64,000 nt of DNA from the NCBI RefSeq assembly GCF_033547095.1, contig NZ_CP137852.1:1233501-1297500 (forward strand), in the 5' to 3' direction. The position numbers were made by a program, and so were the translations under genes. Source of the DNA: Sediminicoccus rosea (GTDB taxonomy: Bacteria > Pseudomonadota > Alphaproteobacteria > Acetobacterales > Acetobacteraceae). Each line of letters opens with the position of its first letter. Within the stretch, counting starts at the first letter, position 1. The notes below the pieces were generated by a model. The model made no database searches and was not told the DNA's origin. It saw only the letters and a program-made list of their open reading frames with translations. Below are positions 19,541-36,483 of this stretch, in pieces.

Positions 19541-19926
19541 GGACCGGCACCCGAAAACAGAACGACGCGGTCTGGGGCAAAGGCTGGCGGTGGTCCAGCG
19601 CCGCTTAGGGCCAGGTACTCTTGCGGCGGTGAAACGCGGCGCGTCGCCTTGAACGCGAAGGCAAATCTATCGTCTGACAGAAAGGTCAGCGTTGACTCGA
19701 GTTGGCTGAGGACCTGCCGGTCGCTCCAGAAGGCGAAGTCACGGACGGCAATGGTGAAGCGGAAATCTCGCTGCCAATCGCCGCCGAGACGAGCCATAAG
19801 CTTTGTGTCGCGGCGCGTGAGCTGATCCGCGCAATAGACGTAACAGGCGATGTCCAACAGATCGGCGAGGCGGTCGGGAATCTTCCCGAGCATCTTGCGT
19901 GTGACCTCTGCGGCGCTGAGCCGCAC
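19541..19926 (-). pseudogene. truncated QueC-like (QatC-type) gene, N-terminal part
   Basis: About 126 codons from a GTG at 19926 read as the N-terminal domain of QueC-like proteins of the Qat anti-phage system: LADLLDIACYVYCADQLTRR, GGDWQRDFRFTIAVRDFAFW and the lead-in DRVVLFSG. The homology stops exactly inside the PP-loop signature, which should read SGGLDS. After that the frame passes into the back-to-back DUF6456 remnant in the wrong frame. Without the ATP-binding half the protein cannot be an active synthetase-like enzyme. No QatA, QatB or QatD gene is present in the window. Confidence 0.6.
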
Positions 19927-20406
19927 CCGTGAGGATGCACGTTCTCGCGCGTTTCATCGAGTGGACCGTCGAACCACTACAAGCCAGGTCTCCGCCTCGC
20001 CGAGGGTTCCGTACCAAAGTGTTCGCTCTCGAAGTACGGATTTCGGGCAAGTGGGGTTCGAACCAGGGCAAGCGTCCGCCGCGCGGGAACCGGCCTTTTA
20101 CCTAGGTTTTTGAGTTCCGTACTGAAACGCCCAAGTCAGGAGGTCCGGAGAGAAAGGGCCTCCGGAGAGCGATTTTCGCCCGTCTCCGCGCCGGGCCAGT
20201 CAACAGGTCTGCCCTGAAAACCCCAGGAAACCTGCCACTCAGCGCGGCCCTCGGTCGGGGGGAGAGTGCGGCTCGTATTGGAACTGGCGGAGAGGGTGTC
20301 TGCCAAAAGACTGTCCCGGGCTGAACCGCATTGCCTCATAACTAAGGCCTTAGGCCGATAAATCACAAATCCATCATCCCCTGCTGTTTCACCTTGAACC
20401 GGGGTA
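19927..20406. other. non-coding stretch before satellite S1
   Basis: I see no convincing gene here. A duplicated TCCGGAGAG (near 20142 and 20162) and a 12-base palindrome CTAAGGCCTTAG near 20341 are the only structures noted. A GGTTCGAACC at 20056-20065 looks like a tRNA T-loop, but the flanking bases do not pair. Confidence 0.5.
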
Positions 20407-20440
20407 GTCCACAAATTATTTGTGGACGACCTTGTGGACG
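20407..20440. repeat. palindrome and TTGTGGAC repeats at the integrase promoter
   Basis: A perfect inverted repeat has 10-base arms GTCCACAAAT and ATTTGTGGAC around one central base (20407-20427). It is followed by a second half-site in CTTGTGGACG (20431-20440), just before the integrase ATG at 20453. The half-sites recur at the far end of satellite S1 (29309-29328). Integrase arm sites, an attachment-site repeat or an autoregulatory operator are possible. Confidence 0.5.
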
Positions 20441-20452
20441 GGATTGTGTGGC

Positions 20453-21754
20453 ATGGCGGGTAAGCTGACGGCGGCGGCGGTGAAAAGTTTGGTGGCGAAG
20501 GGCAAGCCTGGCGCCACGGCGGATGGTGGCGGGCTGTATCTCCGCGTGACCGCACCCGGCATGGGGAAGTGGACGCTGCGCTACATGCTCGGCGGCAAGG
20601 CCCGGGAGATGGGCCTGGGCTCATTGGCGGACGTGTCGTTGGCGGAGGCGCGCATCAAGGCGGAGGAGCAGCGCCCGCTTCTTCGCGCGGGAACCGACCC
20701 GATCAAGGCGAAGGCGGAGGCGGCGGAACAGGCCGCGCGGGAAGCCGCCTTGGCAACAACCTTCGAGGAAGCCGCCCGCATGGTGGTCAAGGAGCGCCAG
20801 CCCGGCTGGCGCAATCCGAAGCACGGCACGCAATGGCTTGCGACCCTCTCCGCCTATGCCTTCCCGGTGATCGGCAAGCGCCCGGTGGCGGCCGTGAATA
20901 CGGATGACGTTCTGGCGGTGCTGCGCCCGATCTGGCAGCGCGTGCCGGAAACTGCGTCACGGGTGCGGGGGCGTATCGAGGCGGTGCTTGATGCCTCCCG
21001 CGCGAAGGGGTGGCGGACTGGTGAGAACCCCGCGCGGTGGAAAGGCCACATGGCCGAGTTGCTGCCGCCGCCTCGGAAGGTGCGGGCGGTGGCGCATCAT
21101 CCGGCTTTGCCCTTCGAGCGCGTGCCCGCCTTCCTCAAGGCACTCGGCAAGCATGAAGGAGCCGGCGCCCTTGCGCTGCGCTTCGCCATCCTCACGGCGG
21201 CCCGGACGGGTGAAGTCCGCAAGGCGACGTGGCGGGAAGTGGACTTGGACAACGCCATCTGGACGGTGCCGGGCAACCGCATGAAGGCCGGCAAGCTGCA
21301 TCGCGTGCCGCTGGCGCCGGAGGTTGTGGCCCTGCTGAAAGCGCACAAGCCGAAGGAGGTTGAGCCCGGCGCCTTTGTCTTTCCGACCGTGACCGGGAAG
21401 GCCCCTTCCGACATGACGCTTTCGGCGGTGGTGCGGCGGATGAATGAACCGGCCGAGGGCGCCAGCCCGGATGCGCCCCCCGCGTGGTGTGACTTGGAGT
21501 GCCGCGCGGTGGTGCCGCACGGCTTCCGATCCACCTTCAAGGCTTGGACGCTCGCCCGCGCTTTCCCGGACCATCTGAGCGAGCGGGCTTTGGCCCATAC
21601 CGACAAAGACAAGGTGCGGGCCGCCTATGCGCGCGGTGATCTGTTGGAGGAGCGCCGGCCGATGATGGAGGCATGGGCGAAGTATTGCCTTGCCGCCGCC
21701 GCCAGCGTGGCCGACCTCGCCACGGAAAAGGCGAAGCGGAAGGCGAGCGCGTGA
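20453..21754 (+). CDS. tyrosine integrase of satellite S1 (P4 type)
   Basis: The 433-residue protein has the DUF4102-like N-terminal DNA-binding domain (ADGGGLYLRVTAPGMGKWTLRY), a core-binding domain (about 100-205) and a catalytic domain. Visible catalytic residues are Arg251 in AARTGEV, His356 and Arg359 in PHGFRSTF, and Tyr392 in AAYARGDL. It inserts and, with an excisionase, excises the element. The ATG at 20453 gives the family-typical MAGKLTAAAVKSL start; an upstream TTG in frame lies in the palindrome. It is related to the second integrase at 31175. Confidence 0.92.
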   Translation: MAGKLTAAAVKSLVAKGKPGATADGGGLYLRVTAPGMGKWTLRYMLGGKAREMGLGSLADVSLAEARIKAEEQRPLLRAGTDPIKAKAEAAEQAAREAALATTFEEAARMVVKERQPGWRNPKHGTQWLATLSAYAFPVIGKRPVAAVNTDDVLAVLRPIWQRVPETASRVRGRIEAVLDASRAKGWRTGENPARWKGHMAELLPPPRKVRAVAHHPALPFERVPAFLKALGKHEGAGALALRFAILTAARTGEVRKATWREVDLDNAIWTVPGNRMKAGKLHRVPLAPEVVALLKAHKPKEVEPGAFVFPTVTGKAPSDMTLSAVVRRMNEPAEGASPDAPPAWCDLECRAVVPHGFRSTFKAWTLARAFPDHLSERALAHTDKDKVRAAYARGDLLEERRPMMEAWAKYCLAAAASVADLATEKAKRKASA

Positions 21755-22706: not shown

Positions 22707-22761
22707 TAATCGCAGGATAATTGCGGGGTAATCGCAAGGCCAAAGGAGCCGGTTGCGATTA
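22707..22761. promoter_or_regulatory. 11-bp iterons upstream of the S1 HTH gene
   Basis: Three direct repeats start TAAT at 22707, 22718 and 22729, exactly one helical turn apart (TAATCGCAGGA, TAATTGCGGGG, TAATCGCAAGG). A perfect inverted copy TTGCGATTA is at 22753-22761. The array lies about 90 bases before the HTH gene at 22852. It has the look of an operator or of replication iterons. Confidence 0.6.
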
Positions 22762-22851
22762 TGCGATATCGCGATGAAGCGGCTTGGGTGTGCTCTGGAT
22801 GCCCCCGGATCAGCGGGAAATTGTTCCCCTGCACCATGGGAGCGACGGTTC

Positions 22852-23082
22852 ATGCCGAACCTCAATTTCACCACCCGCCAGCCGCCCGCGCTGGTGCCGC
22901 TGCCGCAAGGGCAAGCGGTGTTTGGCCTGTCTCGCAGCACGACCTACCGCGCTGCCGCTGAGGGCCTGATTACGCTCCGCAAGATCGGATCGCGGACCTA
23001 CATCGTCACGGAAAGCGCGCTGGCTTACATCGCGGCGCTGCCGGTGATGACCCCGCGCGGCGCCGCGAAGGAGGCCGCGTGA
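22852..23082 (+). CDS. HTH excisionase/AlpA-like protein
   Basis: The 76-residue protein contains a MerR/excisionase-type winged HTH: PLPQGQAVFGLSRSTTYRAA, then AAEGLITLRKIGSRTYIVT. Small proteins of this kind in P4-like elements act as excisionases or as regulators of integrase. The ATG at 22852 is chosen because the longer upstream frame runs through the iteron region. Its stop overlaps the next start (TGATG). Confidence 0.75.
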   Translation: MPNLNFTTRQPPALVPLPQGQAVFGLSRSTTYRAAAEGLITLRKIGSRTYIVTESALAYIAALPVMTPRGAAKEAA

Positions 23083-24415: not shown

Positions 24416-24627
24416 CGCGCCGAGGCAACCGCCCCGACAAGCCCGCCACGGCGCCGCATGGGCCTCTGCACGACGCGGCGCGGCTGGTGATCGTCCCAGG
24501 GCTGCAAAACGCCCTGGGCGGCCCTGTGCTGGCCTGGGCGGGCGGATCGGCACGCCGGCCGGTGCTGAAGGCCCTGGCGACCTTCGCGGCCCTGGCAGCC
24601 GCCCGGGATGATGGGGGCGCCGCGTGA
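24412..24627 (+). CDS. small satellite protein between replication genes
   Basis: The 71-residue basic, alanine-rich protein (MTRRGNRPDKPATAPHGPLH) overlaps both neighbours by four bases, so translation is coupled through the whole run. No motif is recognised. Conservation of the overlap pattern supports it being coding. Confidence 0.5.
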   Translation: MTRRGNRPDKPATAPHGPLHDAARLVIVPGLQNALGGPVLAWAGGSARRPVLKALATFAALAAARDDGGAA

Positions 24628-25574
24628 AGGAACGCCCGGACATTCCCGAAGTGGTGGCCATGCTCTCGGCCCGCATGTCGGAACTCGCCATGCAGTTGTG
24701 CGGCGAGCCGACCGAACGCGGCCGGGATACCTGGCGCTACCGCCGCAAGGGCAGTCTCGCGGTGGTGGTGCAGGGCGCCAAGCGTGGCAGCTGGTTTGAC
24801 CATGAGGCCGGGCAGGGCGGCGATGCGCTGGGCTTCATCGCCCATCTGAACGGGAAGCCCATGCGGGAGGCTTACAGATGGGCGCTGGGCTGGCTGGGCG
24901 TTGAGGTAGGGCAGCGACGCCCGGAAGCGCCACAACGCCCTGTAGCGCCTCCTGAGGGGCAAATAGAGGCATCCCGGACGCTGGACCTCGCCCGCCTGAT
25001 CTGGATGCAGGCTGCGCCCGCCGCCGGGACGGTGGTTGAAGCCTATCTCGCATCGCGCGGGCTGGCGCTGCCGGATGCGGCGCCGATCCGGTTTCACGGT
25101 TCCTGCCCGCGCGGCCCGGAGCGGCTGCCCGCGATGGTGACGCTGATGGTCTCGCCATCAACCGGCGAGGCGGCGGGCGTGCATCGCACCTTCCTCAAGC
25201 CGGACGGCACCGGGAAGGCCGAAGGCAAAGCCAAGATGATGGCAGGCCATGCGGGCGTGATCTGCCTTTCACCACGGCGCGACGTGGGCGACGCGCTGGG
25301 CCTGGTGGAAGGCATCGAGACGGGCCTTGCGGTGATGCAGCGCGGGGGATGGCGGCCGGTGTGGGCGGCGACCTCGGCGGGAAGCATCGCGGCGTTTCCG
25401 GTGCTGCCGCCCATCGGGACGCTTCACCTCTTTGCGGATGCGGACACGGCAGGACTGAGCGCGGCGCGGCAATGCGCGGGGGCGTGGGCAGCGGCGGGCC
25501 GGAGGGCGCGGGTGATCTGGCCGCCGGCTGGTGATTGGGACGATGCGCTACGGCGCGGAAGGGGGATCAATTGA
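24624..25574 (+). CDS. Toprim-domain primase-like protein
   Basis: The 316-residue protein has an N-terminal CHC2/DUF7146-like part (VVVQGAKRGSWFDHEAGQGG) and a C-terminal Toprim domain. The Toprim acidic residues are visible in LVEGIETGLA (about 227-236) and FADADTAGL (about 270-278). Such proteins synthesise primers, or act with the P4-type helicase encoded directly downstream. The stop is overlapped by the TTG start of the next gene (TTGA). A zinc-binding Cys cluster is not obvious, as in many phage forms. Confidence 0.82.
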   Translation: MKERPDIPEVVAMLSARMSELAMQLCGEPTERGRDTWRYRRKGSLAVVVQGAKRGSWFDHEAGQGGDALGFIAHLNGKPMREAYRWALGWLGVEVGQRRPEAPQRPVAPPEGQIEASRTLDLARLIWMQAAPAAGTVVEAYLASRGLALPDAAPIRFHGSCPRGPERLPAMVTLMVSPSTGEAAGVHRTFLKPDGTGKAEGKAKMMAGHAGVICLSPRRDVGDALGLVEGIETGLAVMQRGGWRPVWAATSAGSIAAFPVLPPIGTLHLFADADTAGLSAARQCAGAWAAAGRRARVIWPPAGDWDDALRRGRGIN

Positions 25575-26992
25575 GCGATAGGGACGAAGCCGAGCGGATC
25601 TTCCGTGAGGCAGGCGCACAAGAGGAATGGTTCACGCCGAGCGGCGCGAAGCCGGAGCCTCCGGCGGAAGGGGAACCGCCTGAGCATTCGGACGACGCGC
25701 TGGCGCTGGCCTTCTCGGATCGGCACGCGGGGCAATTGCTGCATGTGCCGGAGTGGGGCGCATGGCTGCGCTGGGATGGCTGCCGGTGGGCCTTCGACAA
25801 GACGCTGGCGGTTTACGATCTGGCGCGGCTGATCTGCCGGGAGGCAGCGATTGCGGCGGAGGAGGGCGGGCGGCGCGATGAACAGGCCGCCGCCGCCAAG
25901 CTGGCCAGCGCGCAAAAGGTCTCGGCGGTTGAACGACTGGCCCGCGCGGATCGGCGCCATGCACGCCCGGCCGATGCGTTTGACGCCGATCCTTGGGCGC
26001 TGAACACGCCGGGCGGTGTTGTGGACCTCAGGACCGGCGGCATGCGCCAGCACGGCACGGCGGACTTGTTCACCAAGGTCACGGCGGTTGCGCCTGGTGG
26101 TGACTGCCCGCGCTGGCGGCGCTTCCTGAATGAGATCATGCAGGGCGACGCCGAGGCCATCGCCTACGCGCAGCGGTGGTGCGGATACGCCCTGACAGGC
26201 AGCACGCGGGAGCATGCCTTCCTGTTCCTCTATGGGCCGGGCGGCAACGGTAAATCCGTCCTGCTGAACACGCTGGCGCACGTCATGGGGGACTACGCCA
26301 CCACGGCCGATATGGAGCTGTTCACGGTGGGCGGCGGGAACAGTCATCCGACCGGCCTTGCGGACCTACGCGGCGCGCGGCTGGTGCTGGCGCAAGAGAC
26401 GGAACAGGGCCGCGCGCTCGCGGAAGCGAAGATCAAGGCCATGACGGGCGGCGACCGCATCAAGGCCCGCTTCATGCGGCAAGACTTCTTCGAGTTTCAG
26501 CCGGTCTTCAAGCTGGTGATGACAGGCAATCACCGGCCTGTGATCCGCAACCCGGATGAGGCGATGCGGCGCCGGCTGCATCTGCTGCCGCTGACCTACA
26601 AGCCGCCGGCACCGGACCGCGATCTGGCCGAGGCGTTGCAGCGCGAAGCGCCCGGCATCCTGGCCTGGGCCATCGAGGGCTGCATGGCCTGGCAGAGCGA
26701 AAGGCTCGGCAGCTGCCCGACCATGTTGGAGGCAACGGCCGAATACTTCGCGGAACAGGACTTGATCGCGCAATGGCTGGCCGAGCGATGCGAGGCGGTG
26801 CGGCACGGCGAAGCGCCATCCTCGGCGCTGTTCCGGGACTGGCAGGCATACGCGAAGGATCGCGGCGAGGAGGCCGGGACAAGCAAGACGTTCTCCGCCG
26901 CGCTGGAGCGGCACCACGCGAAGAAGCGGAAACCGAGCGGGGTTGTCTTCCTGGGGCTGCGTTTGCGGCCGAGCGATACGGGGGTTTTCTGA
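25571..26992 (+). CDS. P4-family primase/helicase
   Basis: The 473-residue protein is a superfamily-3/D5 helicase of phage P4-alpha type. Walker A GPGGNGKS is at about 222-229, the B' region AQETEQGRALAEAKIKAMTG follows, and a sensor segment FKLVMTGNHRPVIRNPDEAM comes next, ending with RRRLHLLPL. The D5_N domain precedes. The TTG at 25571 has GGAAGGGGG upstream and overlaps the previous stop. It should unwind the satellite origin, and the iteron structure just downstream (27012-27105) is its likely target. Confidence 0.88.
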   Translation: MSDRDEAERIFREAGAQEEWFTPSGAKPEPPAEGEPPEHSDDALALAFSDRHAGQLLHVPEWGAWLRWDGCRWAFDKTLAVYDLARLICREAAIAAEEGGRRDEQAAAAKLASAQKVSAVERLARADRRHARPADAFDADPWALNTPGGVVDLRTGGMRQHGTADLFTKVTAVAPGGDCPRWRRFLNEIMQGDAEAIAYAQRWCGYALTGSTREHAFLFLYGPGGNGKSVLLNTLAHVMGDYATTADMELFTVGGGNSHPTGLADLRGARLVLAQETEQGRALAEAKIKAMTGGDRIKARFMRQDFFEFQPVFKLVMTGNHRPVIRNPDEAMRRRLHLLPLTYKPPAPDRDLAEALQREAPGILAWAIEGCMAWQSERLGSCPTMLEATAEYFAEQDLIAQWLAERCEAVRHGEAPSSALFRDWQAYAKDRGEEAGTSKTFSAALERHHAKKRKPSGVVFLGLRLRPSDTGVF

Positions 26993-27011
26993 TGGCGCAG
27001 CACATGGCCGA

Positions 27012-27105
27012 TGTAGGGTTGTGTAGGGTTTTTCGTTGTCTCTCGTGTGTGACGCGCGAGCGCACGCGCGAACGGGTATTACGAGAAACCATACACAACC
27101 CTACA
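27012..27105. repeat. candidate replication origin of satellite S1
   Basis: A 25-base arm at 27012-27036 is repeated inverted at 27081-27105 with only two mismatches. Each arm is itself two tandem TGTAGGGTT-like iterons. The 44-base spacer has an alternating CGCGCG/GCGCAC tract and a GAACGGGT next to the right arm. It lies 20 bases after the primase-helicase stop. The same plan with a different iteron occurs after the second primase at 33514-33602. Origin function is inferred from position and structure. Confidence 0.6.
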
Positions 27106-27179
27106 TGCTTTTGCGGGAAAGCGGCGGGTAACTGCGGATTTTGGCCAAATGGCCCTATCCTGCCGAAAGGGCGCCTTTC

Positions 27180-27743
27180 GTGACCGGCGCGGCGAGGAAA
27201 TCGGGCCGCGTGGCGGTGCCGGAGAAGCCCGCCGGGAAGGGCAACGTGGCGCGCATCGCTTCCCCTGAGGAGGCGGCCCATCACCGCAGAGAGGGCCACC
27301 TTGCCCGCATCACGGGCGGCAAGACGGACCGCTTCAACAACCACGCCATCCGCCAGCTGGTGGACACGCTTTGGCTGCCCGGGTGGGCGGACCGGGATCA
27401 AGTCATCGGCGCGGCGGTGGACGCGGTGGCAGGCTTCGAGCCGACCGACCCGGTTGAGGGGATGATGGCAACCTTGGCCGTGGCGCAGCACGCGGCGGCG
27501 ATGGAATGCCTCCGGCGCGCGATGCTGGCCGAACAACCTTTCGAGATCACGACGCGGCTTCGCCATGACGCGGCAAAATGCACCCGGGCCTTTGCCGAGA
27601 TGGCCGAGGCGATTGATCGGCGCCGGGGCAAGGGCCAGCAAACCGTCCGGGTTGAGCATGTCACGGTGCAGGCCGGAGGGCAGGCCATCGTTGGGGCTGT
27701 CGCGGCGCCGAGCGGCAAGGCCCGGGGGGTGGGGCATGAATGA
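27180..27743 (+). CDS. hypothetical satellite protein, possibly packaging-related
   Basis: The 187-residue helical protein contains HLARITGGKTDRFNNHAIRQ, DQVIGAAVDAVAGFEPTDPV and a C-terminal RVEHVTVQAGGQAIVGAV. This last pattern, a strand around VEHVxVQxGGQAIVG, is common in small genes next to mobile-element primases in alphaproteobacteria. The GTG at 27180 sits at the end of a hairpin (CGAAAGG, GCG, CCTTTCG at 27164-27180); a TTG at 27141 is an alternative. It overlaps the next gene by eight bases. No function is established. Confidence 0.6.
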   Translation: MTGAARKSGRVAVPEKPAGKGNVARIASPEEAAHHRREGHLARITGGKTDRFNNHAIRQLVDTLWLPGWADRDQVIGAAVDAVAGFEPTDPVEGMMATLAVAQHAAAMECLRRAMLAEQPFEITTRLRHDAAKCTRAFAEMAEAIDRRRGKGQQTVRVEHVTVQAGGQAIVGAVAAPSGKARGVGHE

Positions 27744-29589: not shown

Positions 29590-30255
29590 TTAGTTCACAG
29601 GGCTCGAACGCGTGTGCCCGGATACTGGATGACCATCACGAGTATGAGGGCGGACCTGCACGGCGCCACCTGTTGTGTTGCTCTCGCGCTCCGGTCTGCC
29701 GCCGCCATCGATCCGACGACGATACGTCCTGAAATGCTCTGCCTCGTCGATCTTGGACCAGTTGTTCGGCGACCAGTTGGCCAACGTCGAGCCCTCCGAC
29801 CAATATCTCGCCTCACGCCAGTACGGACTGTTCCCACGTCCGGACCCGCCTGTGGTCTCGATGGCACGCTCCATCATAGAGCGGACGCGCATGACAACAT
29901 CTTCGGTAGAACGCGCCCGAGCACCTATTCCAACCGCGAGAAGGTTGTTGTGACGATCCATCCTGCGCGCCACAGGCATGTTGCTTGGAGCAATAGGTCT
30001 GCCGCCGAGAATTGAGCGCAGCATCGCTTCGGTGCTGGCCCACTCATTCCGCTCAGCCATCGCTGCGGCAAGCAGTGGACCCGCGCGGCGTGACAGTTCC
30101 GCAACTCCAACGAGATGGCGGTAGGCATCTGCTGGTCCTTGGTCCTGCCCGGGCAGCCGCGACGCCTCGGCTTCGTCGTTAGCAAAGTCGCGCACTTGCG
30201 CAGCGATCGCGCGCAGACGCGCAATCCTGCCCAAGCTTGGGCTGGGATCATCCAT
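29590..30255 (-). CDS. DUF6973-like protein, possible toxin
   Basis: The 221-residue protein has DAYRHLVGVAELSRRAGPLL, a glutamate-containing helix, and MDRHNNLLAVGIGARA. The DAxRH...MDxHNN arrangement resembles the DUF6973 domain found in polymorphic-toxin and phage contexts, where conserved His/Asp residues suggest an enzyme. The tail VQVRPHTRDGHPVSGHTRSS resembles a repeated VRxHTR motif seen at the ends of many secreted or phage-linked proteins. It follows the membrane-anchored gene 30311-30802 on the same strand. Toxin activity is inferred. Confidence 0.45.
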   Translation of the reverse strand: MDDPSPSLGRIARLRAIAAQVRDFANDEAEASRLPGQDQGPADAYRHLVGVAELSRRAGPLLAAAMAERNEWASTEAMLRSILGGRPIAPSNMPVARRMDRHNNLLAVGIGARARSTEDVVMRVRSMMERAIETTGGSGRGNSPYWREARYWSEGSTLANWSPNNWSKIDEAEHFRTYRRRIDGGGRPERESNTTGGAVQVRPHTRDGHPVSGHTRSSPVN

Positions 30256-30310
30256 AGTTTCATCCTTTCAGGGGGTAGGTTGCAATCGCCGGCGCCAGCC
30301 GATCTCGGCC

Positions 30311-30802
30311 TCAGTGTCGCCAAGTACCGCCGTAGGAGGCAGGTCGATGGTTGGTGCAGGCGCTGGCGCGCGGCCCTTCCTCAGCAAAGCGGACCGCCAC
30401 GTCGCACTGACTTTGCGCGATGAGATCGACGTCGAACTGGAAAACCTTCGTCTCAGCACTGTGACCGACGCGGTAGCGGATTTCGGCTTGTTGGCGGCCT
30501 TCACGTGCCGACACCGTCGCCCAGGACATTGTCCCGCGGCTCGATGGGCTAGGGATCGTGTAGCTCCTGTCGGAAGCTTCCTCGCTCAGGCGCGCGTTTT
30601 CACCGAGACGAAAAGCGACGATCCGGACCTCATCCGGCCGCTCTCCAACAAAGGAGAAAACCGCGGCCCCATGGTCGGAGAGGGGATCCTCGAAAATCAA
30701 AACTAGGATGTCCCAGGCAGGGCGCGCGGCGATGGCCAGGAGCCCGGCGACGCAGAGGCCGATCAGCAATGGCTTCTGCACCTTCAAAAGGCATGGCTCC
30801 AC
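30311..30802 (-). CDS. membrane-anchored hypothetical protein
   Basis: The roughly 163-residue protein has one N-terminal membrane helix (LLIGLCVAGLLAIAARPAWD) and a periplasmic part rich in strands. Start is uncertain (GTG at 30802, with other non-ATG choices within 15 codons). It is upstream of the DUF6973-like gene with a 55-base gap, so the two may form a toxin and immunity/anchor pair. No family is recognised. Confidence 0.4.
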   Translation of the reverse strand: MEPCLLKVQKPLLIGLCVAGLLAIAARPAWDILVLIFEDPLSDHGAAVFSFVGERPDEVRIVAFRLGENARLSEEASDRSYTIPSPSSRGTMSWATVSAREGRQQAEIRYRVGHSAETKVFQFDVDLIAQSQCDVAVRFAEEGPRASACTNHRPASYGGTWRH

Positions 30803-31174
30803 GCATAAGAGCTAAGGATATTCCTATTTTGTTCTTCGTGTCAAGACGTTTATGAGATCCATTTTGTGTGCCGCTTGCACATTGTGCTGCGGTCGTCGCG
30901 GCTGGGCTTCTACACGCGGTCCCTCGCAGATTTTCGCGCGTAATTGATGGTTTCCTGAGTGACACCGCGAACCGGAGCGAAAAGCAGCGTAGCCGAGCGA
31001 AATTCTGCGAACTGGCGGATGAGGTGTCCGCCTGTATGGTGCCCCTGACCGTCCCGGACTGTGCCAAAACTGACGTTTAAGCTGGGCACGATCGAATGGG
31101 AGTGTGCCCCTCTGGTTTCCCTTGCCTCCCTCCGTTCCCACGCTAATGTGGGAACCAGTGTGGGAAGCGAAATC
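30803..31174. other. intergenic region before integrase 2
   Basis: Divergent spacer with an AT-rich part (30812-30850) that could hold promoters for both directions, and two GTGGGAA direct repeats (near 31147 and 31160) just before the integrase start. No gene is seen. Confidence 0.4.
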
Positions 31175-32521
31175 ATGGCGGACATATCAGCGAAGGCGTT
31201 GAAGGCGCGGCTTTCAGCCCTGGCAGAGAACCCACCCGGCAAGGTGGTACGGATCATGGCCGGCGCTGGCCTGCATCTGCTGGTGAAGCCCACCCATGAG
31301 GCCGGCGCGGGCGTATGGGTGTTGCGCGTCACGGTGGCCGGCAAGCGCAGGGACATGAGCCTGGGGGCCTTCCCCCTGGTGGGGCTGGCAGATGCCCGCA
31401 TGGCTGCCGAGGATGCCCGGAGGCTGGCAACCAAGGGGGCGGACCCTATCGCCGCCCGTGCCGAGAAGAAGGCCGCTGCTGCCCCCGCCGTCACCACCAC
31501 CTTCAAGGCCGCTGCCGAGGCCCTGCACCGCGCCAAGGCCCCGGAGTGGAAGAACCCCAAGCATGGCGCCCAATGGCTCGCCACCTTGAAGGCCCATGTG
31601 TTCCCCAAGATCGGGGCGCGGCCTGTCGCCAAGGTGGACACGGATGACGTGCTGCGCGTGCTGCAACCCATCTGGACGAAGACGCCTGAGACTGCCTCGC
31701 GCGTGCGGGGCCGTATCGAGGCGGTGCTGAACTACGCCGCCGCGACCGGCAGCCGCCCGCGCGGCCCGAACCCTGCCACATGGCGCGGGCATCTGTCGGA
31801 AGCCTTGGGCGCCCCGTCCAGGCTCAAGGCGGTGGTGCGGCGGGAGAAGGGGAAGGGCGAGAACCATCCCTCCCTGCCGTGGCAGGAGATGCCCGCCTTC
31901 ATGGAGGCGCTGGAAGGCCGGAAGGGCATGGCGGCCCTGGCGCTGCGCTTCTCCATCCTGACCGGCGCCCGCACGGGCGAGGTCCGCGGGATGACGTGGG
32001 GCGAGGTGAATGAAGCTGATGCCGTATGGATTGTTCCCGCTGCCCGCATGAAGGCTGGCAAGGTTCATTTCGTGCCGCTCTCCCCTGCCGCGCTGGCGGT
32101 GCTGGAGGAGGTGAAGAAGCTGGCGGAGGGGCGGGATAGCCTGGTGTTCCCCGGCCAGCGCAGCGGCAAGGCCCTCTCCGACATGACGCTCTCCATGCTG
32201 GTGCGGGGCATGGCAACCGATGGCCTGGCCGAGGGCGAGCTACCCCGCTGGCGCGATCCCGAGGGCCGGGTGGTGGTGCCGCATGGCTTCCGCGCCAGCT
32301 TCAAGGCGTGGTCCCTGGCCCAAGGCTGGGGCGACCATCTGAGCGAGAAGGCCCTCGCCCATACCGACAAGGACAAGGTGCGGGCCGCCTATGCGCGCGA
32401 GCCGCTGACGGAAGAACGCCGGCCGATGATGGAGGCGTGGGCAGCTTGGCGCGCGAAGTCGGCACCGGCTGTCGTGGCATCGCTGGCCGCCGAGAAGGCG
32501 AAGCGGCAGGCTTCGGCCTGA
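31175..32521 (+). CDS. tyrosine integrase of satellite S2
   Basis: The 448-residue P4-type recombinase is a paralogue of the S1 integrase. The N-terminal DUF4102-like domain reads GLHLLVKPTHEAGAGVWVLR. The catalytic residues appear in GARTGEVRGMTW (Arg), PHGFRASF (His, Arg), LAHTDKDKVRAAYARE (His, Tyr). The ATG at 31175 has GGGAAG seven bases before it and gives the usual length; a longer upstream frame lacks support. The closely similar C-terminus ending in EKAKRQASA shows common descent with 20453-21754. Confidence 0.92.
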   Translation: MADISAKALKARLSALAENPPGKVVRIMAGAGLHLLVKPTHEAGAGVWVLRVTVAGKRRDMSLGAFPLVGLADARMAAEDARRLATKGADPIAARAEKKAAAAPAVTTTFKAAAEALHRAKAPEWKNPKHGAQWLATLKAHVFPKIGARPVAKVDTDDVLRVLQPIWTKTPETASRVRGRIEAVLNYAAATGSRPRGPNPATWRGHLSEALGAPSRLKAVVRREKGKGENHPSLPWQEMPAFMEALEGRKGMAALALRFSILTGARTGEVRGMTWGEVNEADAVWIVPAARMKAGKVHFVPLSPAALAVLEEVKKLAEGRDSLVFPGQRSGKALSDMTLSMLVRGMATDGLAEGELPRWRDPEGRVVVPHGFRASFKAWSLAQGWGDHLSEKALAHTDKDKVRAAYAREPLTEERRPMMEAWAAWRAKSAPAVVASLAAEKAKRQASA

Positions 32522-32754: not shown

Positions 32755-33546
32755 GGCGGCAACGGAAAGAGCGTCTTCCTGAACACCCTCGCCGGCATCC
32801 TGGCTGACTACATCGCATCGGCAGCGATGGACACCTTCACCAGTTCGCCCAACGACAAGCATCCTACTGACCTCGCCATGCTGCGCGGCGCGCGTTTGGT
32901 GACAGCGACCGAGACCGAGGAGGGCCGGACATGGGCTGAAGCCCGCATCAAGCAGATGACCGGTGGCGACCCCATCTCAGCTCGCTTCATGCGCCAGGAT
33001 TTCTTCACCTACACGCCTCAGTTCAAGCTCACCATTGCAGGCAACCACAAGCCTGCCCTCCGGAATGTGGACGATGCTGCGAGGCGGCGGTTCAATATCG
33101 TGCCGTTTCTCCACAAACCTGAGACGCCCGACCGTCACCTTGAGCAAAAGCTAAAGGCCGAATGGCCCGGCATCTTGCGATGGATGATCGAGGGTTGCCT
33201 CGATTGGCAGGAGAACGGCCTCGTTCGCCCGGCAATCGTGACCGGCGCGACTGAGGAATACTTCGAGGCCCAGGACGTCATTGGGCGCTGGCTGGCTGAG
33301 CGCTGCATCCTAGCGTCACATCTGGAGATAAAGCCGGGCGTGCTGCTTGCGGATTGCCGCACCTGGGCCGCGGAGAGCGGCGAGGCCCCGCCCACCCCGC
33401 AGCAATTCCGCAGCGCGTTGGAGAAGGTGAAGGGCGTCCGATACGCCACAGTGAAGGGCGTGCAGTGGATTAAGGGCATCGGCCGCCAGGCCCAGCCGGA
33501 CGCCCGGGGGGAGAGGGTGGAGGAGGGTGGAAGTGAGGAACGTTAA
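32755..33546 (+). pseudogene. 5'-truncated P4-family primase/helicase of S2
   Basis: The frame enters abruptly at GGNGKSVFLNTLAGILADYI, the Walker A loop, with an in-frame stop two codons upstream. The N-terminal half is therefore deleted. The rest is intact: RLVTATETEEGRTWAEARIK, FKLTIAGNHKPALRNVDDAA, RRRFNIVPF and a winged-helix-like C-terminus. The S1 homologue is complete. The helicase cannot be functional without its N-terminus. An ATG at 32827 opens a 239-residue frame that lacks the P-loop. Confidence 0.8.
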
Positions 33547-33602
33547 TCTCCCACGTGCGCGCGTGCGTTGAAACGGGTCAGTCCTCCACCCTCCTCCACC
33601 CT
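33514..33602. repeat. candidate replication origin of satellite S2
   Basis: A perfect 18-base inverted repeat (33514-33531 and 33585-33602) is made of two tandem GGGTGGA units per arm. The 53-base spacer contains CACGTGCGCGCGTGCG and GAAACGGGT close to the right arm. The left arm overlaps the last codons of the primase frame. The plan equals that at 27012-27105 although the iteron sequence differs. Confidence 0.6.
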
Positions 33603-33932
33603 GGCCAGCCGGCCGCTCGCCTATGAGGGGCGGCTGAACGCCCACTGGCGCTGCCGGCGCCGCCTGAGCGCGACCGCACCTGCCTCACCGGATGGCGCGG
33701 GAAGCCCCCTGGCGGGCGTTGTGGGCAATCCTGACGCTTTTGGTAGACGGCCTGTCGTGAAACCATATACCGAGGAGGGTGCGTCCCCAGCCTTCCAAGC
33801 AGGACCGTTGAGGATGGCGCCCGGCACTCTCGCGGTCCTGATACCGTGGATTGCCGCTACGCTGCCGTGTTAAACGAGCGTCTCACGGCCGCGCATGAGT
33901 GCGATCCAGTCCGATCAACGCGGAGGGACCTC
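33603..33932. other. gap between S2 origin and terminase gene
   Basis: No convincing gene. GC-rich with scattered small inverted repeats; an AT-richer TGAAACCATATACCGAGG near 33757 could be promoter sequence for the terminase gene. Confidence 0.35.
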
Positions 33933-34445
33933 ATGACAAAGCGAAAAACTGATAGCCCGACCAAGGGGCAGGCGAAGCAGCGTGGAGCGCCCGCGCGCCG
34001 CCCGATTGGCCGCCCTCCGATCAAGCCATCACCTGATGATCCCCAGGCCATCGATCGGCTGTGCCAGCTTCTCATTGGCGGGATGAGCATGAGCGAGGCC
34101 TGTGCACAGGATGATTGCCCCGCCCGCACGGCGGTCTATGCGAAGATGGCCGTGGACGGGGATTTTCGGAACGCTATCGCGCGTGCGCGCGAGGCGCAGC
34201 AGCATGCGATGATTGATGAGACAATCGAATTGGCCGATGCCGCCACGCCGGAGAACTGGCAGGTGGTGAAGCTCCGCATCTGGGCGCGGCAATGGCGAGC
34301 TGCGAAGCTGGCGCCGAGGACCTATGGAGAGAAGGTTGAGGTCGCCGGGAGCGCAGAGAACCCGTTGACCCTGCTGATCCAGGAAGTGCAGGGGCGCGCC
34401 TTCAAGCCCGTGCAAATCGTGGATGGGGAGGCGGAGGAAACGTGA
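33933..34445 (+). CDS. terminase small subunit, Sf6 type
   Basis: The 170-residue protein fits the Sf6 gp1-like terminase small subunits: a basic N-terminus, a helical DNA-binding part (CQLLIGGMSMSEACAQDDCP), VYAKMAVDGDFRNAIARARE, HAMIDETIELADAAT, and the characteristic LRIWARQWRAAKLAPRTYGE. GGAGGGACC precedes the ATG. It recognises phage packaging sites, and with no large subunit nearby it would have to work with a helper phage terminase, a known strategy of phage-inducible satellites. That role here is inference. Confidence 0.8.
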   Translation: MTKRKTDSPTKGQAKQRGAPARRPIGRPPIKPSPDDPQAIDRLCQLLIGGMSMSEACAQDDCPARTAVYAKMAVDGDFRNAIARAREAQQHAMIDETIELADAATPENWQVVKLRIWARQWRAAKLAPRTYGEKVEVAGSAENPLTLLIQEVQGRAFKPVQIVDGEAEET

Positions 34446-35174
34446 TGGAGGCGGGCGCGGCGCATCGGACTGATCGCCAGGCAGATGCCGCGGCGTATCC
34501 ACTGCCTCCCCCATGCCAATGATGGCTAAGTAGTCCGGCGCGGGACGGGCCGACTTCACAACACGGCAACGTCAACCGCACCGTGCTCGCATTTTTCCGC
34601 CTCGCATCCATTCGTCTCATGATGCGAAGACTATGCAAGCATTAAAAATGTTCGCGGACAGACACTCAGGCGTTGCGCTATCTAGAAACACGGAGCAAGG
34701 CGGCCGGTAATCGCCGCAGGAGATACGCATCCCTGCAACCCTCCCCAAGTCTCGCATTCGGCAGATAAGCGGGGCTCTCAAAGCTAGGAAGTGCCAAAGG
34801 ACGCCCCAGGCATCCGCCCCGATCCCCCCCGCTTGGAAGGCGGGCGATGAGGGCGGCGCCGAGGGCGCGAGTGTCAAGCTGGATGAAGTGCCCACCGAAA
34901 TCAAGGTAGCTCTCCGGCTGGGGCTCGATCGAGACAGCCAACGAGGAGCCCCGCTGACACCCGAGGGCGAAGCGATCTTGCGCGAAATCCTGAAGCGCAT
35001 CGCAGGTCCGGAGCCGTGCTGGAGGCCGGCCGCACGGGCGCCGAGAATGGCATTGCCGCCCGGCAACACGATGCTGCACGAGCCCGTCCATCCCCCACCC
35101 ATCCTGCGCCTAATTGGCGCGCGGGAATGGGCGGTGCTGGAGCTTCCCCTCACACGGCAAATGTGCTGGCATGA
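34446..35174. other. long stretch with no clear gene
   Basis: About 730 bases at the right end of the mobile region. A plus-strand frame from a GTG at 34888 to 35178 reads PTEIKVALRLGLDRDSQRGA and PEGEAILREILKRIAG, plausible but unsupported. The opposite frame looks random. The area probably marks decayed element DNA at the junction to chromosomal genes. Confidence 0.35.
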
Positions 35175-35627
35175 ATGATGCCCCTCCGTCGAAAGACCCT
35201 CACCGTTCTAGCCTCGGCAGCAATCGCGTTGGTTGCTGGCAGCGCGGGCGCAATGGAATTCACTTCGGCCCCTCTCGCGAGTGACACGATGGCGATCCGG
35301 GCGCAGGGGAACATCGTACGGGGAGACGCAGAGCGCCTGCGGCGTGCGATCCGCGCGCATCCGGGACAGGAGGTTGTGCTTCACATCTCCAGCGAGGGCG
35401 GTTTGCTGGGCGAAGCCTCCGATATGGCGAGCATGATTGCTCGATATCGCATCCCCGTCTTTCTTCCACACAATGCCATCTGCGCTTCCGCCTGCTTTCT
35501 TCTCCTGGCGGCCTCGCCGGACCGGATGATGAGCGAGACGGCGCGGGTGGGCGGCGTCGGCGCCGCAGTCAACGGCGCCAATACCCGTCCTGAAGCTCGG
35601 CGCCAGGATCTGATGCATCCGAGGTAA
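35175..35627 (+). CDS. exported ClpP/crotonase-fold protein, shortened
   Basis: The 150-residue product starts with a signal peptide (LRRKTLTVLASAAIALVAGS, cleavage after AGA). It continues with a ClpP-like fold: VVLHISSEGGLLGEASDMAS and AICASACFLLLAASPDRMM, where the CASACF serine is the usual nucleophile position. The homology ends after TARVGGVGAAVNG, where related proteins continue with a GVH block and further helices, so it may be truncated at the mobile-element boundary. Periplasmic, function unknown. Confidence 0.55.
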   Translation: MMPLRRKTLTVLASAAIALVAGSAGAMEFTSAPLASDTMAIRAQGNIVRGDAERLRRAIRAHPGQEVVLHISSEGGLLGEASDMASMIARYRIPVFLPHNAICASACFLLLAASPDRMMSETARVGGVGAAVNGANTRPEARRQDLMHPR

Positions 35628-35679
35628 CCTCCTCGGTCTCGTGAACGTATGGCCGGTTCAACAATGTGAGTGAGGAGCG

Positions 35680-36483
35680 ATGGGTCCGGGGGCTGCGATT
35701 TCGATTGTCTGCAAGACGCCGGGCGTCGGCGGGGGCAAATCGCGCCTTCGGCCTCTGCTCGGGGCGGAAATGGTCGCACGACTGTCCGGCTGTTTCATTC
35801 GTGACGTTGCTGCTGCGCTGGAAGCCGTGCCCAGCCCTCTCGGCCGGCAACTTTACGCGCTCTACAGTCCAGCCGGGTCGGACGTATTGCTGCGGGCGCT
35901 GCTGCCACCGCCCTGGACGCTGGTGTTGAGCCACGCGCAGAGCGTCGGCGCAGTTCTGGACATGAGCATGGCGGCCTTTCTTGGCGACGGTCACGACTGC
36001 GCCATTATGGTAAACGGCGACAGCCCGACCCTGCCGACGGATTTCATCGTCGAGGCCATCGCTGCACTCCGTGCGCCCGGTGACCGGGTCGTTCTCGGTC
36101 CCGCTCTCGACGGTGGCTACTACCTGGTCGGGCTGAAGCGGCCCCATCCGCGACTTTTCGAGGACATCGCCTGGAGCACGCCGGATGTGCTCGCGTGCAC
36201 GGTCGAACGCGCGCGGGAACTCGGCCTGCCCGTCATGCTGTTGCCGCGTTGGTATGATGTCGACGAGCCTCAAGACGTCCTTCGATTGCAGAGGGAATTC
36301 GCCGGGCAAGCGCCATGCCTCAATTCGGGGATGACGGGCGGCCCGGCGCCGCACACGCGCGCTCTGCTGGCCGAGTGGGCCGGCGGTGAGAGGTCTGCCT
36401 TTTCGGGAGGTCTCGAGACGAAATGCTTGGCTCCGCCTGTAACCCCCACGAGTTGCCCGCCGATCTGTGGCGCGAACCAGTGA
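35680..36483 (+). CDS. TIGR04282/DUF2064 transferase
   Basis: The 267-residue protein belongs to the DUF2064 nucleotidyl/glycosyltransferase-like family first noted beside radical SAM/selenodomain proteins and later linked to arsenosugar biosynthesis. Supporting blocks are SIVCKTPGVGGGKSRLRPLL, CAIMVNGDSPTLPTDFI, RVVLGPALDGGYYLVGLK and LPRWYDVDEPQDVLRLQREF. The last 40 residues (after about 225) extend beyond the usual end and are of poor character, so the true end may have shifted by a frameshift. The partner family TIGR04283 is encoded at 51516-52208. Confidence 0.8.
   Translation: MGPGAAISIVCKTPGVGGGKSRLRPLLGAEMVARLSGCFIRDVAAALEAVPSPLGRQLYALYSPAGSDVLLRALLPPPWTLVLSHAQSVGAVLDMSMAAFLGDGHDCAIMVNGDSPTLPTDFIVEAIAALRAPGDRVVLGPALDGGYYLVGLKRPHPRLFEDIAWSTPDVLACTVERARELGLPVMLLPRWYDVDEPQDVLRLQREFAGQAPCLNSGMTGGPAPHTRALLAEWAGGERSAFSGGLETKCLAPPVTPTSCPPICGANQ

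Follow-up and report, generated by a model that had tools for sequence, protein, structure and literature searches.

What is the role of the symmetrical repeat that follows a helicase gene in the alphaproteobacterium Sediminicoccus rosea? The 64,000 nucleotides (nt) analysed here (contig NZ_CP137852.1, positions 1,233,501 to 1,297,500; referred to throughout as the window) hold two adjoining satellite-like elements with integrases, S1 and S2, and the repeat lies in S1, at 27011-27106 of the window. A preliminary description of these letters had read it as a new type of replication origin, in which an initiator and its binding sites, or iterons, change together. As a whole, that interpretation divides: the origin reading and the linked change are supported, while the claim to a new type is rejected.

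On the comparisons given below, we place a probability of roughly 0.85 on the following explanation taken in its entirety. The segment 27011-27106 would be the replication origin (ori) of the integrated element S1, and the neighbouring D5-family helicase would bind its iterons through a C-terminal winged-helix domain. Each iteron pair, held on one face of the helix by a period of 9-10 base pairs (bp), would nucleate one helicase assembly; two assemblies of opposite polarity would form over the centre and open the AT-richer shoulders around a CG-alternating core, where the neighbouring Toprim primase would prime bidirectional replication. S2 would carry an origin of this kind with another iteron; its own initiator open reading frame (ORF) is truncated, and that origin would therefore probably be a relic. 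What the comparisons directly support is the anatomy of the site, the conservation of that anatomy, its tie to the C-terminal domain and the exchange of domain and origin together; binding, double-ring assembly, melting, priming and replication at S1 are what we infer. The parts of S1 concerned are as follows.

24624..25574, plus strand: Toprim primase ORF with DUF7146 and Toprim_3 (Pfam; phrog_510 DNA primase)
25535..26992, plus strand: D5_N + DUF5906 (D5/SF3-family) helicase, the proposed initiator (Pfam D5_N 5e-32, DUF5906 1.8e-13)
27011..27106, no strand assigned: putative origin, two iterons facing two inverted iterons (inverted-repeat and motif scans)
27012-27020 and 27022-27030, plus strand: left iteron pair, the 9-nt TGTAGGGTT twice with a 10-bp period
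27046..27070, no strand assigned: core, CG-rich and mostly alternating purine-pyrimidine (longest unbroken run 27060-27070, 11 nt)
27070..27077, plus strand: inner box GAACGGGT
27087..27105, minus strand: right iteron pair TGTAGGGTTGTGTATGGTT, one mismatch against the left pair

The left arm starts 18 nt past the stop codon of the helicase, residues 419-477 of which are predicted to form a winged helix, a fold that was also matched. The two arms (27011-27036 and 27081-27106) are 26 nt long and complementary at 24 of 26 positions (92%), so that the two tandem iterons facing two inverted ones, first described with 23 of 25 matching, are confirmed; the 44-nt spacer, its CG/GC tract and GAACGGGT / GAAACGGGT also lie where that description had placed them. 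Allowing up to three mismatches, the 19-nt iteron pair occurs at two places in the window, both of them the arms (shuffle mean 0.00), and with up to two mismatches and one free base both occurrences in the genome are again the two arms (pairs were searched, single iterons were not).

S2 repeats this plan, as had been claimed.

32827..33546, plus strand: truncated D5-family helicase ORF, without the D5_N part
33514..33602, no strand assigned: putative origin with the S1-like plan, iteron AGGGTGGAGG
33552..33568, no strand assigned: core, a 17-nt alternating purine-pyrimidine run

Its arms (33514-33531 and 33585-33602) pair at 18 of 18 positions around a 53-nt spacer, the left arm lying within the 3' end of the helicase ORF, and its iteron pair is likewise found at two places in the window, both the arms (shuffle mean 0.05; one of 100 shuffles had two matches). 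When the window was scanned in 360-nt pieces with spacers of up to 140 nt, S1 (score 20) and S2 (18) were the top inverted repeats, the next scoring 13. The S2 iteron is not "completely different", as had been thought: AGGGT and the 10-bp period are common to both. The truncated helicase ORF of S2 matches DUF5906 at profile positions 38-114 only. A third copy of the plan, L082 (G000:C1:2770330-2771631), lies on the same chromosome behind a helicase 66% identical and has TGTGACGGGT iterons; three putative origins with differing iterons thus coexist in one genome.

Is the plan a property of this one genome, or of the helicase? The preliminary description had proposed comparing the flanks downstream of related proteins, and we assembled 247 such loci: the best 80 of at least 599 viral contigs, the best 80 of 304 genome contigs, six of 1027 matching phage records, three from the organism's own genome and 78 from genome searches at 1e-20, which gave a match in 46 of 299 genomes of the family, 20 of 289 of the class and 25 of 299 of the phylum, own genome included. 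Eight loci, with no stop found or less than 200 nt of flank, were uncounted, leaving 239 readable 3' flanks. The plan was called strong at an inverted-repeat score of at least 14, or with four 7-mer iterons and at most one mismatch in all, thresholds that were set post hoc. By this measure it is strong in 182 of the 239 flanks, weak in 23 and absent from 34, proportions which, being drawn from redundant and partly overlapping sets picked by similarity to the S1 helicase, are no family-wide estimate; at least four loci were entered twice (L177 = L085, L182 = L144, L183 = L139, L184 = L142). Strong cases numbered 70/76 among viral contigs, 3/3 in the own genome, 64/77 among genome contigs and 2/6 among phages, and 18/29, 13/24 and 12/24 in the family, class and phylum searches, respectively. 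Dinucleotide shuffles yielded none in 478, and other segments of the same loci 9 in 953.

The arms themselves have an internal structure. At a threshold score of 6, an internal tandem repeat is present in 63 of 72 nonredundant left arms, a level reached by 200 of 20000 random 24-mers of equal composition; among the 68 arms scoring at least 5 its period is 9 in 43, 10 in 19 and 8 in 6. Pairing of the arms can do without such a repeat, which a protein that binds along one face of the helix needs; this sets the arms apart from a plain hairpin. Six loci (L166, L198, L207, L218, L227 and L240), hairpin-like or oddly placed or spaced, were removed manually from the nonredundant sets, although some may be real; they were retained in the count of 239 flanks and in the analysis of alternating runs below.

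Linked change of initiator and origin, the second part of the original interpretation, is supported at two levels. Across 65 nonredundant loci, iteron difference correlates with that of the helicase C-terminal region at 0.42 and with that of the core at 0.35. In a partial Mantel test the C-terminal correlation is 0.25 once the core is removed (0/2000 permutations), and the core correlation 0.08 once the C-terminus is removed (87/2000 permutations). More telling than the correlation are block exchanges, since well-conserved flanks stand on both sides of them. When the DNA of L158 (Cupriavidus cauae) is compared with that of L094 (Luteimonas huabeiensis) in 75-nt bins, identity is 92-100% at -825 to -525 of the stop codon, 67-76% at -450 to -300, and 43-61% from -225 to +75, which covers the last C-terminal codons and the origin; from +150 it is back at 88-99%. 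The iteron arms of the two loci are GGACTGACGCATCTGACGC and GGTGACCGAAGGTGACC, respectively. L089/L059 and L111/L089 show a similar drop with a more uneven return (64-100%), and in L153/L108 and L127/L121 the exchange is less sharp. On a tree of the N-terminal and ATPase parts, the C-terminal types are dispersed: C0 (25 rows) and C1 (9 rows, S1 included) require four changes each and C3 (3 rows) three, at least two in each type being forced by starred branches, and C3 clusters no better than shuffled labels do. This tree was a quick one with no bootstrap, from a protein alignment of 246 rows (one of the 247 loci left out). As judged from these comparisons, the C-terminal region and the origin tend to change jointly, as one block. 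A small gene whose start resembles LALDLGTTTGWAL directly follows the origin in L089, L150, L156, L164 and others, at the right border of the exchanged block; in AcaML1 the small gene after the origin is annotated as a putative polynucleotidyltransferase.

Biochemistry published for related initiators points the same way. One report (PMC7581432) shows Cch2, a D5_N relative, binding a repeat region behind its own gene through its C-terminal domain, and cites Rep of the Staphylococcus aureus pathogenicity islands (SaPIs) as a further such case. Conservation behind relatives, the partial Mantel test, the block exchanges and this work on Cch2 and SaPI Rep together support the reading of a replication origin recognised by the neighbouring helicase, along with linked change of origin and initiator.

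Several observations weigh on the other side. Firstly, the 34 flanks lack the plan at either threshold and in the further 23 it is weak, a grade also reached by 10 of the 478 shuffles and 56 of the 953 other segments, and near copies are common among the viral and genome loci. Secondly, the six phage records examined gave two strong, three weak (A2, TG1 and Caron) and one with none, and the TG1 repeat resembles an ordinary short hairpin. BPP-1, which is called nearly identical to BIP-1, is without the plan, the scan having given only a 9-nt inverted repeat; for BIP-1 a downstream stem-loop is published (PMC4234260). Thirdly, in PMC7581432, binding by Cch2 was kept without the inverted repeats and abolished by deletion of direct repeats. 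Fourthly, the exchange pairs share the same approximately two cassette types, so that the events are not independent, and the correlation between domain and origin could partly be linkage through adjacency. Adjacency alone could also move domain and origin together, for which reason their joint change is no proof of recognition.

The layout is, in any case, already known, and S1 and S2 are not a new origin type. The replication origins of phage-inducible chromosomal islands (PICIs) and SaPIs were reportedly the subject of work by Ubeda in 2012. In PICI origins two iteron sets flank an AT-rich region behind rep (Fillol-Salom 2018, PMC6092414). S1 and S2 share with these an origin directly 3' of the rep/primase gene (it starts 18 nt past the stop codon in S1 and runs into the 3' end of the gene in S2) and two iteron sets around a centre; S1 also shares integrase, primase, rep and ori within one element. 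Against the PICI set, int, pri, rep and ori are present in S1 and an AlpA-like gene is weakly inferred. The difference lies in the centre, which is AT-rich there and GC-rich in S1 and S2, where only the shoulders are AT-richer than the locus. Streptococcus phage Sfi21 has an annotated origin at the 3' end of its primase gene, in which a tandem pair of TTAGTTAC faces an inverted pair (arms 18/18), but with a 71-nt AT-rich spacer and another iteron, in a phage of Gram-positive bacteria. Phage A2 has a rep_origin annotated at the primase 3' end, with ACGGGAGGA repeats on both strands. In P4, the alpha gene is immediately followed by crr, in which type-1 repeats occupy both strands: each 120-bp repeat is annotated with a pair on the plus strand, a pair on the minus strand and one more on the plus strand. 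A comparison of iteron direction with S1 would require the binding mode of each domain. P4 differs in its additional, distant annotated ori and in a crr that is a duplicated 120-bp repeat with an AT-rich centre; its ori and crr form a bipartite system sharing iterons, whereas the S1 iteron pair occurs at one genome site (up to two mismatches; single iterons not searched). Because of the PICI origins, the Sfi21 origin, the A2 record and P4 crr, the facing arrangement that had seemed unfamiliar has precedents, and our finding is a variant. What remains novel is the CG-alternating centre with AT-richer shoulders, its spread among the relatives examined and a possible unity with the archaeal plasmid pRN1.

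The longest alternating purine-pyrimidine run has a median of 21 nt in 190 origins and 7 in letter shuffles; runs of at least 12 nt occur in 65 of 81 nonredundant origins against 2.1% of shuffles, and those of at least 10 nt (71 origins) sit at 0.48 ± 0.05 of origin length. Across 72 origins the central 20 nt average 74% GC, the shoulders between core and iterons 51% and the loci 64%. S1 and S2 both have 80% GC in the central 20 nt, with shoulders at 54% and 46% against loci at 67% and 66%; the alternation is an 11-nt unbroken run inside a longer broken tract in S1 and 17 nt in S2. In the two origins from loci below 50% GC the run has a median of only 8 nt and is rich in AT, and the CG core may therefore belong to GC-rich lineages. 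The box beside the right arm, to which the preliminary description had drawn attention, fares less well: AACGGG is enriched in the right half, yet rare, being present in 7 of 72 nonredundant origins where letter shuffles give 1.0. Among the papers listed by literature searches that missed most subscription journals, none dealt with a CG-alternating centre for origins of this kind, which is weak evidence of novelty.

The comparison with archaea is where other explanations enter. In pRN1 a 100-bp stem-loop behind orf904 is required for replication, and its origin is stated to have no iteron structure (PMC4234260). S1 resembles this family in having a structure of about that size behind a P4-family primase-helicase with a C-terminal winged helix; the published account of a stem-loop without iterons, the AT-rich surroundings and an archaeo-eukaryal primase domain in place of Toprim set the plasmids apart. 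However, 53 nt past the primase stop of pRN1 (NC_001771) we found 21-nt arms, TTATGTCCATAGTGTCCAACT, in which two TGTCCA 9 bp apart face two more, and the arms of pHEN7 hold GTCACCACT and GTCACAACT, the central sequence being ACACGCGTGT. A short GGAC repeat is all that pRN2 offers, and in pDL10 no repeat is clear, so that facing iterons are backed by two of four archaeal plasmids. Among nine plasmid records scanned, facing pairs are clear in pRN1, pHEN7 and pM44601 (L268); L266 and pDL10 (L262) have good inverted repeats with a weak internal repeat or none, L264 and L267 give plan matches only, with inverted repeats at chance level, and in L263 and L265 the plan scan found nothing.

A broader alternative would unite these cases. 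Bacterial and archaeal D5/SF3 helicase replicons would share a plan in which two iteron pairs face each other past the initiator gene, and the C-terminal domain and the origin would travel together as one exchangeable cassette; in GC-rich lineages it would be the centred CG-alternating core, not an AT-rich region, that opens, its flexible pyrimidine-purine steps or B-Z junctions under supercoiling being the meeting point of two helicase rings and the place of strand parting. We advance this tentatively and think it rather unlikely to hold in full. The opposite course is to take the sites for cruciform or single-strand stem-loop origins recognised by shape, as proposed for pRN1, where mutagenesis showed a need for the loop and an intact stem (PMC4234260); the good pairing of the arms and the cases of pRN2 and pDL10 agree with this. 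Given the 8-10-nt internal periodicity of most arms and the repeats inside those of pRN1 and pHEN7, we consider it very improbable.

Another rival is a transcription terminator or attenuator, in which the arms would form an RNA hairpin behind the helicase gene. The arms are inverted and directly past the stop codon, and one terminator-like match (27002-27024) overlaps the left arm of S1, but it does not pair arm with arm and is one found against 0.9 expected from shuffles, while the single match near S2 (33769-33791) is outside the arms there. The common spacers of about 30-70 nt are long for a terminator loop, and the internal repeats in 63 of 72 arms would be superfluous for a hairpin; the attenuator, which the preliminary description had itself named as a possible refutation, is hardly credible with matches at or near shuffle level and not formed by the two arms. 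Least credence of all goes to an operator for a transcriptional repressor, since, typical as symmetrical intergenic repeats such as the S1 site between its two genes are of operators, the site stays behind the helicase in most relatives examined while the next gene varies (for example an ORF without a match in S1, the small terminase subunit in S2 and, in AcaML1, a putative polynucleotidyltransferase), iteron identity follows and changes with the helicase C-terminal region, and a scan of 26800-27400 and 33300-33900 for sigma-70-like promoters, other promoter types being outside its scope, found none.

The remaining genes assigned in the two elements are these.

20420..21754, plus strand: S1 tyrosine integrase (Pfam PF22022, PF13356, PF00589)
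22753..23082, plus strand: S1 small ORF, AlpA/excisionase-like by weak inference (similarity to L252)
31061..32521, plus strand: S2 tyrosine integrase, with about 52% identity to the S1 enzyme (Pfam)
33846..34445, plus strand: S2 terminase small subunit (Sf6 type), 3' of the origin (PF20901, phrog_1482)

The small ORF at 22753-23082 is 50% identical over 58 amino acids to a stretch of the related locus L252 that holds an ORF with sub-cutoff matches to HTH_17 and phrog_66 (excisionase), and a PHROGs search with it gave no direct match. Primase and helicase of S1 are separate ORFs in different frames, overlapping by 40 nt (24624-25574 and 25535-26992). Helicase frames in the relatives L171, L173, L175 and L176 are 458-477 amino acids long; those in L170, L172 and L178 are longer (655-822) and may be fusions. 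The ORF after the S1 origin (27141-27743) gave no match, and ORFs in the same place in close relatives match DUF5681 (L250, 10765-11229; L252, 8791-9363). No virion structural families were found among those S1 ORFs that were scanned. As candidates for attachment (att) sites, no exact repeat of at least 14 nt is common to 19600-20500, 30000-31200 and 33600-35700, which leaves the element ends undefined. The terminase small subunit is retained behind the S2 origin despite the truncated helicase ORF.

To return to the two sites as origins, that of S1 may be active, as its primase and helicase ORFs appear complete and the site is unique in the genome. Judging by a helicase ORF without its N-terminal part and an iteron unlike that of S1, the S2 origin is probably a remnant, or depends on a foreign initiator acting in trans. 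For the wider family, the plan offers a sequence-based rule for locating the origins of many satellites, prophages and plasmids, and the natural exchange pairs allow initiator specificity to be assigned to a domain of some 60 residues. Two questions are now testable: why melting origins carry a CG-alternating centre, and whether the archaeal pRN1 "stem-loop" origin is an iteron origin.
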